NCBI GenBank assembly: GCA_029260655.1
Contig: JAJDCU010000007.1
Coordinates: 1 to 63,759, forward strand
Direction of reading: 5' to 3'
Source of the DNA: Phycisphaeraceae bacterium
GTDB taxonomy: Bacteria > Planctomycetota > Phycisphaerae > Phycisphaerales > Phycisphaeraceae
Length of the DNA stretch: 63,759 bases
Positions 10,954 to 17,866 of the stretch are shown piece by piece. Each line of letters opens with the position of its first letter. Position 1 is the first letter of the stretch. Under the pieces are notes generated by a model, which saw only the letters and a list, made by a program, of their open reading frames with translations, had not been told where the DNA came from and did not search any database. A program made the position numbers and the translations under genes.

Positions 10954-11646
10954 ATGGACAGCACGTTGAGCGACAAGCGCCAGACAGGCACCGATCGACT
11001 GGACACGCTGAGCGAGGAAGTACTCGCCCGGCGTGTTCAGCTTGGGTGCGTCCACAGCTACGAAGAGCTGGACCGTCGGCTCCGTCCGAAGCTGGTGTAC
11101 CTGCTACACAAGCGCACCGGCAGCCGGGAGGACGCCGAGGATCTGGCGCAGCAGGCGCTGATGCGGGCGTACCAGAAGATCGACAGTTACGATCCCAAGC
11201 GCCGTTTTCGGTCGTGGCTATTTACGATCGCCGTGCGTCTGGCGATCGACGCCCATCGAAAACGGGGGATCCAAACCACGGGCGAGGGGATTGATCGTGC
11301 CGTGGATACGAAACCCGGGCCGGCCGAGACGGTGAGCCGGCTCGACGGGCAGAGGCGTCTGTGGGCCCTGGCGGACCGGGTGCTGGACCCGACGCAGCGG
11401 ACGGCCCTGTGGCTGCACTACGGCGAAGAACAAAAGGCCAAAGAGATCGCAAAAACCCTGGGGATCACGGCGGTGCATGTGCGTGTGCTTCTGTACCGAG
11501 CGAGGCGGGCGCTGATGGCGCACCTGGATGCGCCCGAGCAATCGCAAACTCAGCCAATGATGGGTCCGCCGGTGGAACCTGTGCCGGTGAAAGAAGCTGT
11601 CACGATTCGGAGTGACGCGAGCATAAATAAAGGAGCCGTGACATGA
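10954..11646 (+). CDS. ECF-type RNA polymerase sigma factor
   Basis: 230 residues. Region 2 spans about residues 38-105 (LRPKLVYLLHKRTGSREDAE, DLAQQALMRAYQKIDSYDP, FRSWLFTIAVRLAIDAHRK) and region 4 about 145-190 (TQRTALWLHYGEEQKAKEIA, TLGITAVHVRVLLYRARRAL). Extracytoplasmic-function sigma factors direct RNA polymerase to stress or envelope promoters. The last codons overlap the next gene by the sequence ATGA, so translation is coupled to the membrane protein that follows, a likely regulator. The C-terminal 40 residues are outside the sigma domains. Confidence 0.88.
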   Translation: MDSTLSDKRQTGTDRLDTLSEEVLARRVQLGCVHSYEELDRRLRPKLVYLLHKRTGSREDAEDLAQQALMRAYQKIDSYDPKRRFRSWLFTIAVRLAIDAHRKRGIQTTGEGIDRAVDTKPGPAETVSRLDGQRRLWALADRVLDPTQRTALWLHYGEEQKAKEIAKTLGITAVHVRVLLYRARRALMAHLDAPEQSQTQPMMGPPVEPVPVKEAVTIRSDASINKGAVT

Positions 11647-12539: not shown

Positions 12540-13100
12540 TTGGAAAGCCAGGCATTCCGTGAACTAGCGATGGCCGAGATGGATTCGCTGTATCGCATGG
12601 CGATGCACCTTGCCCGTAACCCCGAAGACGCCTCGGACCTGATGCAGGAAACGTATCTCAAGGCGTTCAAGGCCGAGGCCCGTTTTGAGCTGCGCGAAGC
12701 GGGGGTTCGGCCGTGGTTATTCAAGATCCTGCACAACAACTTCTACACCCGTGTCGGCAAGAAGAGCCGTGAGCCGGTGCTGTCCGACGACCTGTCGTAT
12801 CAGCCCGGGCCCGGCGGCGACCCCAATGAGGCGGGCCCGGCCTGGGACCTTAAGCACCTGAACTGGGAGCAGGTGGACGACCGGCTGAAAAAAGCGATCC
12901 ACGACCTGCCTGAACACTACCGGGAGGTGCTGTTGCTGTGGGCGGTCGAGGGCCTGAAATACCGTGAGGTGGCCGAGGTGATGGGTGTGCCCCTTGGGAC
13001 GGTGATGAGCCGGCTATACCGGGCCCGGTCGATCCTGGCCCAGTCGCTGGGCGATCTGGCGGCGGAACACGGGATCGCCGTGGACGGGCCGGGGCCATAA
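12540..13100 (+). CDS. ECF-type RNA polymerase sigma factor
   Basis: 186 residues from a TTG start 9 nt after a GGGAAAGG site. Region 2: MDSLYRMAMHLARNPEDASD, LMQETYLKAFKA, RPWLFKILHNNFYTRV; region 4: HDLPEHYREVLLLWAVEGLK, YREVAEVMGVPLGTVMSRLY, RARSIL. It belongs to the RpoE-like ECF group common in planctomycetes. A TACAAT hexamer at 12486-12491 may be its promoter element. The anti-sigma-like gene at 13273 follows after 172 nt, which contains two short overlapping ORFs. Confidence 0.92.
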   Translation: MESQAFRELAMAEMDSLYRMAMHLARNPEDASDLMQETYLKAFKAEARFELREAGVRPWLFKILHNNFYTRVGKKSREPVLSDDLSYQPGPGGDPNEAGPAWDLKHLNWEQVDDRLKKAIHDLPEHYREVLLLWAVEGLKYREVAEVMGVPLGTVMSRLYRARSILAQSLGDLAAEHGIAVDGPGP

Positions 13101-13283: not shown

Positions 13284-14154
13284 CAGACCCATGAAAAACG
13301 ACGACCAGACCCTCGCGGCGTTTGCCGACGGGGAACTCACCGGCGAGCAGAACCTGGAGGTTCTGCGCCAGATGTCTAACGACCCCGACACCGCCGAGCG
13401 GGTCGCCCAACACCAGCAACTGCGTCAGGCGGTGGCCCGTGCGATGGATGACCCGTCGCTGACGACCCCGGCAGTGCTGCGTGACCAGATCGCCCAATTG
13501 GCGGCAACCGTGCAGGCCGACCCCCCGGCGGACGCCGCGCCACCCGCTTCAGACCAACGTACACCGGTGCTGGCTGTGATCGGCCGATGGCTGCCCGCGG
13601 CGGTCGCGGCGCTGTTTTTCATCGGGGCCCTGACCGCCCTGAGCATCGCCGACAGGACCGGCCCCCAGTTGATCACCTCCGCCAACGTCATCAACGCCTC
13701 GATGATCGACGACTTCGGCGCCAGGCATTTCAAGTGCTCTCGCAAGATCACCCCGATGGCTCAGACCGATCTGTTCCCCCGCGACCTGGCCGCCCTGCCG
13801 GGCGAACTGAGCGATTACTTCGATCAGCCGATCGACCCGGACGTGCTGAACCTCTCGTCGGTCGGCTATGAGTTTGACATGGCCGGGCTGTGCATCGTCC
13901 CCGGCAAAGGCGCTGTCCACCTGATCTACACCGCCCAGGCCCCCGATGGGCAGATCGATGCGCTGAGCCTCTGGCTTAGACCCGTTGACGCCGACTCGGG
14001 CATCGAGCCCAACCAACTCTACACCGCGGCCGAGCCCAGCAAGAACTTCCCCATGCTCGTCTGGCGTCACGGTGATATGGCCTACCACCTCGTCGGGGAC
14101 TCCTACGACGCGGTCCAAAGGGCTTTTGACGCCATCAGCGCTTACCAGGATTAA
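13273..14154 (+). CDS. membrane-anchored anti-sigma factor-like protein
   Basis: 293 residues. The N-terminal cytoplasmic part (DDQTLAAFADGELTGEQNLE and VAQHQQLRQAVARAM) matches the short helical anti-sigma domain, though the HxxxCxxC zinc motif is missing. One membrane helix at about residues 97-118 (WLPAAVAALFFIGALTALSI) leads to a ~170-residue outer domain ending LVGDSYDAVQRAFDAISAYQ. Position after the ECF sigma factor supports the role. An ATG 6 codons downstream is a possible alternative start. Confidence 0.8.
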   Translation: MTTDRPMKNDDQTLAAFADGELTGEQNLEVLRQMSNDPDTAERVAQHQQLRQAVARAMDDPSLTTPAVLRDQIAQLAATVQADPPADAAPPASDQRTPVLAVIGRWLPAAVAALFFIGALTALSIADRTGPQLITSANVINASMIDDFGARHFKCSRKITPMAQTDLFPRDLAALPGELSDYFDQPIDPDVLNLSSVGYEFDMAGLCIVPGKGAVHLIYTAQAPDGQIDALSLWLRPVDADSGIEPNQLYTAAEPSKNFPMLVWRHGDMAYHLVGDSYDAVQRAFDAISAYQD

Positions 14155-14234
14155 GCCGGGCCCGGTCCTCACAGAGCCTCTCCCGCCGCCGACATGCCGT
14201 ACGGTGACAGCCCGGTCCACCGCCGCCTAAAACC

Positions 14235-14264
14235 TTGACCAAAAGCGTGTTTGCGTGGTACAAT
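14235..14264 (+). promoter_or_regulatory. putative sigma-70 promoter of ilvB leader
   Basis: TTGACC (14235-14240) and TACAAT (14259-14264), spacer 18 nt. The expected transcription start (about 14271) is only 1-3 nt before the ATG of the leader ORF. Confidence 0.65.
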
Positions 14265-14272
14265 GCCCGCTT

Positions 14273-14350
14273 ATGCTGTCTGATGGAACCCAAGCCCTGA
14301 TCCTCACCGACCTGCCGGCACAAACGGCCGTGGGGGTCGTTGTTAGCTGA
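14273..14350 (+). CDS. putative ilvB leader peptide rich in Leu/Ile/Val
   Basis: A 25-codon ORF, MLSDGTQALILTDLPAQTAV followed by GVVVS and a stop. Nine of 25 residues are branched-chain amino acids: four Leu, one Ile, four Val, with three Val in a row just before the end. It lies directly downstream of a promoter and 163 nt upstream of ilvB. Leader peptides rich in the end-product amino acids regulate ilv operons by attenuation in E. coli (ilvB, ilvG). No textbook terminator with a T run is visible between it and ilvB, so the mechanism could differ. Confidence 0.55.
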   Translation: MLSDGTQALILTDLPAQTAVGVVVS

Positions 14351-14513
14351 GCGGAAGACCCGCACCGCCCATCGGCCAAGGGCGCGACTCAATACCCAGG
14401 CGACCATCGGCCGCTTCATCCATCCGTCCGACAGACACGAAACTGACAACCGCACCAGACACGACCCGAAGCCGACTCGGCCGGGCTGTCACCAGATACG
14501 ATCGGATCGTCCC

Positions 14514-16301
14514 ATGCCCGCACACAGCAACCACCTGAACACCGAAACCATCGGGTACGCCGGCCCCGGTAAGCCGACCGACAAATACCTGGGGATGACC
14601 GGGGCCCAGATCTTCCACGACATGATGCGAGACCACGGCGTGGAGGCAATCTTCGGATACCCCGGCGGCGCGATCCTGCCGGTGTTCGACGCGATCCATG
14701 AGTCGCCGCACTTCAAGTTCATCCTCTCCCGCCACGAGCAGGGCGCAGGGCACATGGCCGAGGGCTACGCACGGGCGTCGGGGAAGGTCGGGGTGGTGCT
14801 GGTAACCTCCGGCCCCGGTGCGACCAACACCGTCACCCCGATGCAGGACGCCCTGATGGACGGCACGCCGCTGGTCGTTTTCGCCGGTCAGGTCGCCACC
14901 GGTGCGATCGGGTCCGACGCCTTCCAGGAGGCGGACATGACCGGGATCAGCCGGCCTTGCACCAAGTGGAACGTGCTGGTGAAAGACGTGGCGGACCTGC
15001 CGCGCGCGATCAACCAGGCGTTTTACATCGCCACAAGCGGCCGGCCGGGCCCGGTGTTCGTCGACCTGCCCAAGGACATGACCGCCAGTAAGCTTAGCGA
15101 GCCGGTCCATGACCAGCCGCACCTGCCGGGCTACCACATCCGCGAGCTGGGCACCTCCAGCGAGATCCAGCGCGTCGCCGAGATGATCAACGGCGCCAGC
15201 AAGCCGCTGCTATACGTCGGCCAGGGCGCGATCATCTCAGACGCGACCGACGTGCTGCGTAAGTGCGCAGAAAAAGCCAATATCCCCGTGACCACGACCC
15301 TCCAGGGGCTGGGCGCGTTCGACGAACACTCGCCCTTGTCGCTTAACATGCTGGGGATGCACGGCGCCGCCTACGCCAACTGGGCGGTGCGCGACGCCGA
15401 CTGCATCATCGCCGTGGGCGCGCGCTTCGACGACCGGGTGACCGGGAAGATCTCCGCGTTCGCGCCCGGGGCCCGCGCCGCCGAAGCCGAGGGACGCGGC
15501 GGGATCATCCACTTCGACATCGCGCCGGAGAACATCAACAAGGCCGTGCAGGTCACCATCGGCGTCGAGGGCGACGCACGGAAGAATCTGGAACTGTTGC
15601 TACCGCTGCTGCAAGACAACGACCGAGGCGACTGGCTTAAAACCGTACGCAAATGGAAAAGTGACCACCCCTTCGCCTACGACCACGACGAGCGGGAGTT
15701 CCACCTCAAGCCCCAGGCCGTGATCGAGGAGCTGTACAAGCAGACCCAGGGCGACGCGATCGTGACCACCGGCGTGGGCCAGCACCAGATGTGGGCCGCC
15801 CAGTTCTACAAGTTCAAAACCCCGCGCCAGTGCATCACCTCGGGCGGCCTGGGCACGATGGGCTACGGGGTGCCCGCGTCCGTCGGCGCCAAGCTCGCCT
15901 GCCCCGACACGCCGGTGGTCAATATCGACGGCGACGGGTCGTTCAGCATGACCGCCATGGAGATGACCACCGCCGCGCAGTACGGCATCGCCGCCAAGAG
16001 CATCATCCTCAACAACGATTTCCAGGGCATGGTCAAGCAGTGGCAGGATCTGTTCTACGAGGAACGCTACAGCCACACGCAGATGCACAACCCCGACTTC
16101 TGCAAGCTCGCCGAGGCGATGCGCTGCAAGGCCGTCCGCGTGACGAAGCTCAGCGACCTGCCCGCGAAGATGAAAGAGTTCCTCGACCACGACGGCCCGG
16201 CGATCCTCGAAGCCATGGTCGAAAAACACGAGCACGTCTACCCCATGCTCCCGGCGGGCAAGACCGTCGACGACATGGTCTTGGGCCCGGCGAAGAAGTA
16301 G
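14514..16301 (+). CDS. ilvB: acetolactate synthase large subunit
   Basis: 595 residues. The N-terminal TPP domain has FGYPGGAILPVFDAI and the catalytic Glu in HEQGAGHMAEGYARASG; SGPGATNTVTPMQDALMDGT and QVATGAIGSDAFQEADMTGI follow. The C-terminal TPP/Mg site is NIDGDGSFSMTAMEM...ILNND. The enzyme condenses pyruvate (or 2-oxobutyrate) to acetohydroxy acids, the first step of valine, leucine and isoleucine synthesis. The ATG at 14514 is preferred; an upstream TTG would overlap the leader region. The regulatory subunit ilvN and ilvC are not in the window. Confidence 0.96.
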   Translation: MPAHSNHLNTETIGYAGPGKPTDKYLGMTGAQIFHDMMRDHGVEAIFGYPGGAILPVFDAIHESPHFKFILSRHEQGAGHMAEGYARASGKVGVVLVTSGPGATNTVTPMQDALMDGTPLVVFAGQVATGAIGSDAFQEADMTGISRPCTKWNVLVKDVADLPRAINQAFYIATSGRPGPVFVDLPKDMTASKLSEPVHDQPHLPGYHIRELGTSSEIQRVAEMINGASKPLLYVGQGAIISDATDVLRKCAEKANIPVTTTLQGLGAFDEHSPLSLNMLGMHGAAYANWAVRDADCIIAVGARFDDRVTGKISAFAPGARAAEAEGRGGIIHFDIAPENINKAVQVTIGVEGDARKNLELLLPLLQDNDRGDWLKTVRKWKSDHPFAYDHDEREFHLKPQAVIEELYKQTQGDAIVTTGVGQHQMWAAQFYKFKTPRQCITSGGLGTMGYGVPASVGAKLACPDTPVVNIDGDGSFSMTAMEMTTAAQYGIAAKSIILNNDFQGMVKQWQDLFYEERYSHTQMHNPDFCKLAEAMRCKAVRVTKLSDLPAKMKEFLDHDGPAILEAMVEKHEHVYPMLPAGKTVDDMVLGPAKK

Positions 16302-16325
16302 GCGGGCAAGCGGAGTCGACTTCGC

Positions 16326-16658
16326 ATGATGAAGATCGGGACGTCTAGCAGGCGGGTAATCGCCGGGGCCCTTGCGGCGGCGCTGTTGTATGTCGGTTCA
16401 TACTCTATCCTGAGTATGCAGGGAACCTACGTCATGTACGTCGGAGCCGGGGCAGACGGTAGCGCGGATTGGTTCCCGCTGTGGTGCCAGAACATGACGC
16501 CCAGTCCGACGACAGGCCGATTGGATACAGAATATCCAAACATGCTCGGGTTCTTTTACTTACCGTTGCTGATTGCTGATCGTTCATTCGTGCATCCACA
16601 CCAAAAAGACTATTGGCAACAATTGACTCCCGATCAGCAGCTACATCATGTCAGATAA
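16326..16658 (+). CDS. hypothetical small exported or membrane protein
   Basis: 110 residues. One hydrophobic N-terminal segment (VIAGALAAALLYVGSYSILS) and a soluble part containing WFPLWCQNMTPSP and LGFFYLPLLIADRSFVHPH. Its base composition is visibly less GC-rich than the neighbours, especially in the second half. No family recognised. It starts 24 nt after ilvB but is probably not functionally linked. Confidence 0.55.
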   Translation: MMKIGTSSRRVIAGALAAALLYVGSYSILSMQGTYVMYVGAGADGSADWFPLWCQNMTPSPTTGRLDTEYPNMLGFFYLPLLIADRSFVHPHQKDYWQQLTPDQQLHHVR

Positions 16659-16708
16659 CACATCACGATAATGCGAGGCGGGGTTATGGCCACCGTTAGA
16701 AAAACAGC

Positions 16709-16714
16709 TATTAT
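16709..16714 (+). promoter_or_regulatory. -10 element TATTAT directly before a start codon
   Basis: TATTAT is separated from the ATG at 16721 by 6 nt, so transcription should start at the ATG. No ribosome binding site is present. The -35 region is weak. Confidence 0.5.
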
Positions 16715-16720
16715 CGTGAC

Positions 16721-17866
16721 ATGAAAAGCTTACTCCTGATCATACAGGCGCTTCTTCTCCAACTGAGCGCTTCATCTGCGCTCGCCCAAAGCTACGGTTT
16801 CGAACACACGTTCAAGAACCTTCAATTCCAGCGTCCGGTGCTGATCGCCGCCGCGCCGGGCGGGGCTGACCGTATGTTCGTCATCGAGCAGGCCGGGCGG
16901 GTCTTGTGGTTTGAGAGCCGGCCGGGCGTTCGGGGATCAGATGTCCACATCGCACTGGACATCCGTCACAAGGTCAACAGCAAGGGCAACGAGGAGGGCC
17001 TGCTCGGGCTCGCGTTCCACCCGGACTTTGCAAATAACCATTGCGTCTACCTGCATTACTCTGCCAGTGCGCCGAGGCGCAACGTCCTGTCTCGGTGGAC
17101 CATGGACCGTAGCGCCAACGTGATCCTCCCCGACAGCGAGCGCGTCATCCTCGAAGTCGAACAGCCTTTCAGTAACCACAACGGCGGACACATCGCGTTC
17201 GGCCCGGAAGGGTATCTCTACATCGCTCTGGGCGACGGCGGCGCAGGCGGAGACCCCCACGGGCACGGCCAAAACCTTTCCACCCTGCTCGCAACCCTCC
17301 TGCGCATCGACGTCGACCAACCCGACAACGCCAAACCCTACGGCATCCCCAAGGACAACCCCTTCCTCAACACCCCCGGTTCCCCCGGCGCACGCCCGGA
17401 GATATACGCCTACGGCCTGCGCAATGTCTGGCGGTTCAGCTTCGACCCTAAGACCGGCGACCTCTGGGCCGGCGACGTCGGGCAGAACGCGCACGAAGAA
17501 ATCGACATCATCACCAACGGCGGCAACTACGGCTGGAACGCTCGCGAAGGGTTTAGCTCTTACAACGGCGGGGAAAAAGCAACTGACATGATCGACCCGG
17601 TCATCGACCTGCCCCGACGCGATGCCGCGTCGGTCACCGGCGGATACGTCTATCGCGGCAAGACCATCCCCGAACTAAACGGCGCGTACATCTACGGCGA
17701 TTACGTCACCGGGATCATCTGGCGCCTGCGCTACGATGGCCATCGGGTCACCGAAAACGAACAGATCGGTAACGTCCCCGAGATCGCAAGCTTCGGGCTG
17801 GATACACACGGGGAACTCTATATCTGTTCACTGCAAGGGCAGATCTACAAGCTGACGCCTAAGTAA
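16721..17866 (+). CDS. PQQ-dependent sugar dehydrogenase (GSDH/HHIP family), secreted
   Basis: 381 residues with a signal peptide (MKSLLLIIQALLLQLSASSA, then LAQ). The soluble glucose dehydrogenase beta-propeller is recognisable from RMFVIEQAGRVLWFE, EEGLLGLAFHPDFANN, HNGGHIAFGPEGYLYIALGD, YAYGLRNVWRFSFDP and GDVGQNAHEEID. Members oxidise sugars or related compounds with PQQ in the periplasm; many planctomycete versions have unknown substrate. Probably translated from a leaderless mRNA. It stands alone, without PQQ synthesis genes in the window. Confidence 0.9.
   Translation: MKSLLLIIQALLLQLSASSALAQSYGFEHTFKNLQFQRPVLIAAAPGGADRMFVIEQAGRVLWFESRPGVRGSDVHIALDIRHKVNSKGNEEGLLGLAFHPDFANNHCVYLHYSASAPRRNVLSRWTMDRSANVILPDSERVILEVEQPFSNHNGGHIAFGPEGYLYIALGDGGAGGDPHGHGQNLSTLLATLLRIDVDQPDNAKPYGIPKDNPFLNTPGSPGARPEIYAYGLRNVWRFSFDPKTGDLWAGDVGQNAHEEIDIITNGGNYGWNAREGFSSYNGGEKATDMIDPVIDLPRRDAASVTGGYVYRGKTIPELNGAYIYGDYVTGIIWRLRYDGHRVTENEQIGNVPEIASFGLDTHGELYICSLQGQIYKLTPK

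Follow-up and report, generated by a model that had tools for sequence, protein, structure and literature searches.

A short open reading frame (ORF) ending in two conserved Val codons, with a hairpin abutting its stop codon, precedes the acetolactate synthase gene ilvB in members of the Phycisphaerae and, in the same form, valS. We consider it very likely that this element is a valine-sensing leader peptide (uORF) on a leaderless transcript, a reading inferred from sequence, with no expression data. The ORF, its Val codons, the stop, the hairpin, the spacing from the -10 box and the identity of ilvB and valS as targets are shown by sequence comparison. That the element senses valine is very probable, since it is also found upstream of the gene for the valine tRNA-charging enzyme (valS).

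The window, that is, the whole stretch of DNA analysed, comprises 63,759 nt from a Phycisphaeraceae bacterium (assembly GCA_029260655.1, contig JAJDCU010000007.1, positions 1-63,759, forward strand). The sequence-only reading had described a 25-codon ORF with nine Leu, Ile or Val codons and a GVVVS end, behind a promoter and upstream of acetolactate synthase, and this description held. Its interpretation as an attenuation leader peptide for ilvB is supported by sequence comparison, attenuation itself being without experimental evidence. The features of the locus are as follows.

14235..14264, + strand: promoter TTGACC, 18 nt, TACAAT, with TG before the -10 (extended -10), from a promoter search
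14271..14273, + strand: predicted transcription start (leaderless or a 1-2 nt leader), inferred from the -10 position
14273..14350, + strand: leader ORF MLSDGTQALILTDLPAQTAVGVVVS, then stop; 25 codons, with an end conserved upstream of ilvB in relatives
14336..14338, + strand: Val codon -4 (GTC), conserved in the ilvB and valS leaders of relatives
14342..14344, + strand: Val codon -2 (GTT, a rare Val codon in the window), conserved in the ilvB and valS leaders of relatives
14351..14363, + strand: hairpin abutting the stop, GCGG (14351-14354), loop AAGAC, CCGC (14360-14363), from pairing and covariation across relatives
14364..14513, + strand: untranslated spacer, C-rich and G-poor, without an intrinsic terminator; candidate Rho loading region (composition observed, function inferred)
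14461..14489, + strand: second hairpin, near the ilvB start, kept in six genus members and imperfect in the window itself
14514..16301, + strand: ilvB, acetolactate synthase large subunit (TIGR00118, 790.9 bits)

The nine branched-chain codons of the leader ORF are four for Leu, one for Ile and four for Val, and the reading frame closes with GVVVS-TGA. The promoter was the sole sigma-70-like site in 13500-15500 (mean of 0.2 in shuffles), and its -10 box ends 8 nt before the leader ATG; a leaderless transcript beginning at about 14271-14273 is predicted from the position of this box, the start being unmapped. The start of ilvB is likely to be at 14514, where the ATG aligns in six genus members. 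The hairpin at 14461-14489, for which the comparison was limited to genus members, has GACCCG in common with the leader hairpin. Two sigma-70-family genes lie near ilvB (10954-11646 and 12540-13100), the second being followed by a 293-aa ORF that matches no Pfam family and immediately precedes the leader. The interval 3' of ilvB (16302-17866) contains a 110-aa ORF and then a GSDH-family dehydrogenase ORF, and a glance at the annotation, without a dedicated ilvN search, revealed no ilvN-like gene immediately behind ilvB.

A search for ilvB in 101 relatives gave matches in 69; the listed genomes of families f2, f3 and f5 had no match as close as those of f1 and f6. The first upstream set consisted of 50 ilvB loci, with L170 and L172 added later among the readable f1/f6 loci. 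The end of the ORF and the part downstream were common to 44 of these 50, and TGAGCGG was invariant in those 44. The ORF end, the stop and the stop-adjoining hairpin (GCGG-N5-CCGC) were kept in 46 of the 53 readable f1/f6 loci. Five of the remaining seven (L014, L049, L050, L053 and L173) had a leaderless ORF of another shape with Val near its end, L051 had, on reading the sequence, an ORF ending V-V-A before the stop, and no leader of any shape was seen upstream of ilvB in L045 (G008). In L053 (G063), a GCGG-like hairpin is read through in the coding frame and the leader ends at a second TGAGCGG..CCCGC, as if the hairpin had been duplicated. Codon -2 was Val in all 44 aligned ilvB leaders and codon -4 was Val in 40, Leu in three and Ile in one; together with the 27 valS leaders described below, all rows having been picked by fuzzy motif match, Val occupied -2 in 71/71 and -4 in 67/71. 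The sequence-only reading had expected the ORF and its Leu/Val codons to be conserved in relatives, and the ORF end, the stop and the Val codons are indeed conserved. It had proposed to look for a conserved ORF rich in branched-chain amino acids (BCAA); what is kept is Val -4, Val -2, the stop and the hairpin abutting it, not BCAA richness as such.

The exact pattern was sought in one genome per species (84,980 species) and returned 38 stretches, every one of them in a record with a planctomycete title (Planctomycetota, Planctomycetes, Phycisphaerae, Phycisphaerales, Phycisphaeraceae, Phycisphaera or Algisphaera). For an estimate of chance, a pattern without the hairpin (a -10-like box, a start codon and an ORF ending GTN-NNN-GTN-NNN-stop) was used. 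It was found in 41/54 ilvB upstream regions (L171, without upstream sequence, included), 26/67 valS regions and 3/12 ilvB regions from the other families of the class, with 18/2660 mononucleotide-shuffled sequences positive in the control. Four loci from other Phycisphaerae families (L257, L258, L264 and L266) had V-x-V-R-UAG, and the 20 ilvB loci outside the class had no convincing leader, with two weak V-x-V-x-stop matches (L314 and L325).

The stem of the hairpin begins at the first base after the stop. Pairing was complete (272/272 cells across 68 rows), the covariation score was reached by none of 500 shuffles, and slid versions of the stem failed. These 68 rows had been selected with the stem in the pattern; 67 f1/f6 loci found without the stem in the pattern also carry the hairpin, 66 of them at offset 0, and for L120 the script gave a longer overlapping stem, one base on. 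The second stem pair was CG in 48/68 rows and GC in 20/68 (20 double changes). This compensatory swap distinguishes most valS copies, with GGGG-N5-CCCC in 21/27 and GCGG/CCGC in 6/27, and at least four switches were inferred on the IlvB tree among 26 labelled genomes (quick method, with 13 open forks). Such natural swaps provide ready controls. In the other families, L257, L264 and L266 have a strong hairpin of unrelated sequence starting at about the same place, as does L265, the stop of which has moved; the fold of L258 was not clear. The stop is displaced downstream in L049 and L050, and the hairpin there starts 6-7 nt past the first nucleotide of Val -2, versus 9 nt in the canonical form, so the distance from codon to hairpin looks roughly kept even without a kept stop.

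A covariance model of the element identified the ilvB copy in the genome of the window with 63.6 bits and a second copy with 38.7 bits, the next match scoring 15.2 bits. The second copy lies upstream of valS, and six further good-scoring second copies in relatives likewise lie before valS. The pattern TGAGSGGNNGRCCCSC had exactly two matches in this genome, at ilvB and valS, and the reversed control pattern had one. Among the 53 valS loci read in f1/f6, the motif was present upstream of valS in 27 genomes, including that of the window; five of the 26 loci without it have <420 nt of upstream sequence. An apparent valS motif was also detected in G022, by pattern match. The motif was found in 0/15 valS upstream regions in f2 to f5, and a leaderless ORF in 0/39 valS regions without the motif (strict rule). 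All 27 valS leaders have Val at both -4 and -2. Seven candidate third copies (L247-L253) were dismissed, as they had no V-x-V ORF upstream, and five weaker class-wide matches to the model, read from a longer list (G102, G257, G079, G243 and G324), lacked the architecture. L254 (ending V-A-V-I before the stop) and L255 (ending V-V-V-S) both lie close to contig ends and might be ilvB leaders truncated by assembly.

The identity of the two targets, and a loop of the form nnGAC that ends in GAC, the Val anticodon, in most copies, would also be expected if the hairpin were an operator bound by valyl-tRNA synthetase. Autoregulation of the thrS type is the model for this alternative, which we regard as very unlikely: loops ending in GAA, GGC or GGA occur, the hairpins of other families have different loops, and the Val codons are left unexplained.

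The leaders of the two genes differ in length and composition. The ilvB leaders have a median length of 27 residues and a median of six Val and are rich in Val and Leu (V+I+L account for 31.9% of the body, versus 13.9% and 9.8% in the two other frames). The valS leaders have a median length of 14 residues and a median of two Val codons, with 2.4% Val in the body, and are BCAA-poor outside V-x-V; examples are MSATPHISSVAVS, MFTHPSRFGVAVS and MLAFLPIPVVVS. What the two groups share is V(-4)-x-V(-2)-x-stop. The median of two Val codons in the valS leaders points to valine as the likely signal. Across loci the length ranges from 12 to 54 codons and the rest of the peptide is variable in sequence. 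That the codons and the stop are what matters is indicated by the free variation of codon -1 (S, R, I, L, M, A or G), the occurrence of all four Val codons at -2 and the replacement of one UGA by UAA (L134). GTT nevertheless predominates at -2, in 63/68 leaders versus 71/849 Val codons in window ORFs (p 3e-53; the reference ORFs, of >=1200 nt and taken from both strands, may include spurious ones). This preference exceeds the conservation of the peptide, and near the stop, too, the bases are kept to a degree that their codon meaning does not require; stalling alone does not explain this. A seldom used codon might provide a more sensitive stall site, although this is an inference.

Conservation at the base level across the stop, including GTT despite its seldom use, could instead suggest that the block GTTAGCTGAGSGGNNGACCCSC serves an unknown valine regulator as a DNA operator, with the ORF incidental. 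A dyad would likewise show paired changes, and the genome has only two copies. Against this explanation, which we consider very unlikely, the ORF opens with an in-frame start codon downstream of a -10 box and accepts every Val codon at -2; other families keep V-x-V and its position though the hairpin sequence is unrelated; the hairpin of L049 and L050 stays close to Val -2 though the stop has moved; and Ile and Leu leaders with terminators exist in the same genome (see below). A second alternative is a TnaC-like arrest, in which the nascent V-x-V-x end, possibly together with free valine, halts the ribosome during termination at the stop and so blocks Rho. The stop and last codons are indeed the most conserved part of the ORF, and a C-rich spacer lies downstream. 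This possibility is also very improbable, given the otherwise variable sequence and length of the peptide, the range of residues tolerated at -1 and the location of the stop several codons downstream of V-x-V in L049, L050 and L053. A valine codon sensor remains our preferred reading.

A -10-like box (>=4/6 matches, searched 4-13 nt upstream of the start codon) was found in 67/68 leaders, L015 being the exception, with its end 6-11 nt ahead of that codon; the start codons were 66 ATG and one GTG. The strict leaderless rule was met in 8/11 non-pattern f1/f6 ilvB loci and in 1/11 ilvB regions of the other families of the class. The ilvB and valS leaders therefore look leaderless, as inferred from -10 spacing, with start sites unmapped; the sequence-only reading had predicted a transcript start just before the ATG.

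The sequence-only reading had also suggested alternative terminator and antiterminator structures in 14351-14513. Searches of this interval for promoters, terminators and structure found neither a terminator nor an antiterminator, and the fold of the 260-nt leader (14271-14530) was no more stable than those of shuffles (z -0.28). No intrinsic terminator was found between the Val leader and the gene at any of 68 loci with a rule allowing loops up to 22 (7/1360 shuffles), a rule that does score the ileS, cimA and leuA leaders described below; an earlier short-loop rule scored 4/68 loci versus 18/680 shuffles. Nor was a conserved antiterminator of the Val leaders found, the one alternative counted being a pairing of the Val-codon GGUC with the loop GACC, seen in one local fold and unsupported across rows (80.1% of cells paired, no paired changes). 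When the region and four loci were scanned against Rfam, nothing rose above chance, the matches to T-box or other families lying far below gathering scores; the element of the window has no Rfam match.

The spacer between hairpin and gene contained more C than G in 37/41 ilvB and 22/25 valS loci (59/66 leader loci), compared with 22/37 motif-free valS regions (p 0.0008) and 32/66 regions upstream of the leaders. The genome encodes rho (C9, 612.6 bits). Rho is suggested because there is no intrinsic terminator, the spacer is C-rich and the gene is present; Rho-dependent termination is the output we prefer, on balanced odds, by inference and with no termination data. The C-rich signature is a weak criterion for Rho, and could conceivably do no more than mark transcribed leaders. 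The absence of a terminator, and a conserved hairpin near the ilvB start within the genus, would also fit a post-transcriptional role of the leader, in ilvB translation or in decay of the mRNA, in place of one in termination. We judge this unlikely, because the distance from the leader stop to the aligned gene core ranges from 83 to 395 nt, in any frame, and the comparison of the hairpin near the ilvB start covered genus members alone.

The genome of the window was also checked for leaders at five more genes (ileS, cimA, leuA, leuS and a third HMGL-like gene), and three had one.

ileS, L334 (G000:C17), TIGR00392, 663.4 bits: leaderless Ile leader MSAELPISIAITLIHSPGTR, then stop; -10 TATAAT 10 nt before ATG
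cimA, citramalate synthase, L337 (G000:C15), TIGR00977, 362.8 bits (for the piece given, below the whole-protein cut-off): leaderless Ile leader MSHAAAIIIGIAIQTSHR, then stop; -10 TATACT 9 nt before ATG
leuA, 2-isopropylmalate synthase, L336 (G000:C41), best model 437.6 bits (piece given): leaderless Leu leader MNHRNATIFANKLAGLLLSLELMARAG, then stop; -10 TACACT 9 nt before ATG

In this one genome, all three combine a leader ORF with Ile or Leu codons, a U-tract terminator and an overlapping antiterminator. The stop is UAG followed by GGG, and pairing is possible between UAGGG(C/U) and the terminator's first arm; the stop comes six to seven codons after the final Ile or Leu codon. A leaderless ORF with a terminator within 110 nt occurred in 0/504 stretches of the window, and neither such a leader nor a terminator was found at leuS or the third HMGL-like gene. 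The leuA leader was overlooked by the strict -10 rule and the short-loop terminator rules and detected by wider rules, and the ileS terminator was missed by the promoter/terminator prediction tool. Attenuation is strongly supported, because these leaders in the same genome have ordinary terminators and antiterminators. The ileS and cimA leaders bear I-A-I where valS leaders bear V-A-V.

In the mechanism we propose, the ribosome would begin translation at the 5' end of the transcript, and the speed of decoding at the Val codons just before the stop would report the level of charged Val-tRNA. The position of the ribosome would decide whether the stop-abutting hairpin can form. A ribosome normally shields the RNA to about 12 nt past the first nucleotide of its A-site codon; on this basis, the hairpin would stay free with the ribosome waiting at Val -4, and its first arm would be covered with the ribosome at Val -2 or the stop. 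The state of the hairpin would then set whether RNA polymerase proceeds into ilvB or, for the second copy, valS. The off state would most likely be Rho-dependent termination in the C-rich spacer after departure of the ribosome, because no intrinsic terminator follows. Stalling, the hairpin state meaning 'on' and the role of Rho are all inferred. That the free hairpin means 'on' is no more than a possible first guess for the Val leaders, by analogy with the genome's own Ile and Leu leaders, in which the arm starting at the stop is the antiterminator. Several observations count against the scheme: there is no terminator and no conserved antiterminator, the motif is missing at 26/53 f1/f6 valS loci and at ilvB of G008 (L045), Val -4 gives way to Leu or Ile in 4/44 ilvB leaders, few ilvB regions of the other families (1/11) satisfy the strict leaderless rule, and the 260-nt leader shows no unusual structure. 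A bolder reading, which may as readily prove wrong as right, is that Phycisphaerae have a set of leaderless leader peptides with one code per BCAA (Val for ilvB and valS, Ile for cimA and ileS, Leu for leuA). The Ile and Leu leaders would be compact classical attenuators with an antiterminator starting from the UAG stop, and the Val leaders a terminator-free class, in which two fixed Val codons gate a stop-butted hairpin that links ribosome departure to Rho.

Proteobacteria are known to have leader peptides upstream of ilvB. Such leaders also occur in Actinobacteria and others (PMC10272879, PMC1262725, PMC13236596). The ilvB-II, ilvB-OMG and Leptospira ilvB motifs (PMC10272879) resemble the element in having a short BCAA-rich uORF upstream of ilvB, but belong to other lineages, and the relevant sections describe no valS copy and no leaderless start. 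In the ilvB1 attenuator of M. tuberculosis (PMC13236596), BCAA codons are the sensor and the ribosome at the uORF stop masks the RNA that follows, a logic followed by the planctomycete ileS, cimA and leuA leaders; this attenuator has an intrinsic terminator and an antiterminator, whereas neither was found for the ilvB and valS leaders. Actinobacteria have classical attenuators at trpS and leuS, and cys leaders without obvious terminators for which Rho has been suggested (PMC1262725). These share with our element a leader peptide before a tRNA synthetase gene and a terminator-less leader, respectively, but concern other amino acids, with no stop-adjoining hairpin in the relevant sections and no mention of valS. 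The trpL leader of S. meliloti (PMC7298713) similarly has its ATG at the 5' end of the transcript, but is a Trp attenuator in an alphaproteobacterium. The literature searched (including PMC4833913 and PMC3890552) contained no leader common to ilvB and valS, no stop-abutting hairpin and no planctomycete leader-peptide system, in agreement with the sequence-only reading, which knew of no planctomycete case; that reading had not included the hairpin, valine as the likely signal or valS as a second target. If our interpretation is correct, leader-peptide control operates in a phylum for which none was found in print, and a synthetase gene and a biosynthetic gene are under one sensor, with leaderless translation as the entry. 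With a Val leader that has no terminator, and an element that is compact and conserved, the question of how a leader ORF attenuates without one becomes testable.

Mimicry of the D-arm of tRNA-Val by the conserved sequence (GTTAGCT-GAGCGG) was also considered and rejected, the best matches to three tRNA-Val genes being 11-13/25; two further tRNA-Val genes, in the tRNA array of C13, were omitted from this comparison. That array (L333, G000:C13:28000-45000) contains 36 tRNA genes with many anticodons, 35 of them within about 7.4 kb, other single tRNA genes being scattered elsewhere, and may represent a tRNA-array or mobile unit.
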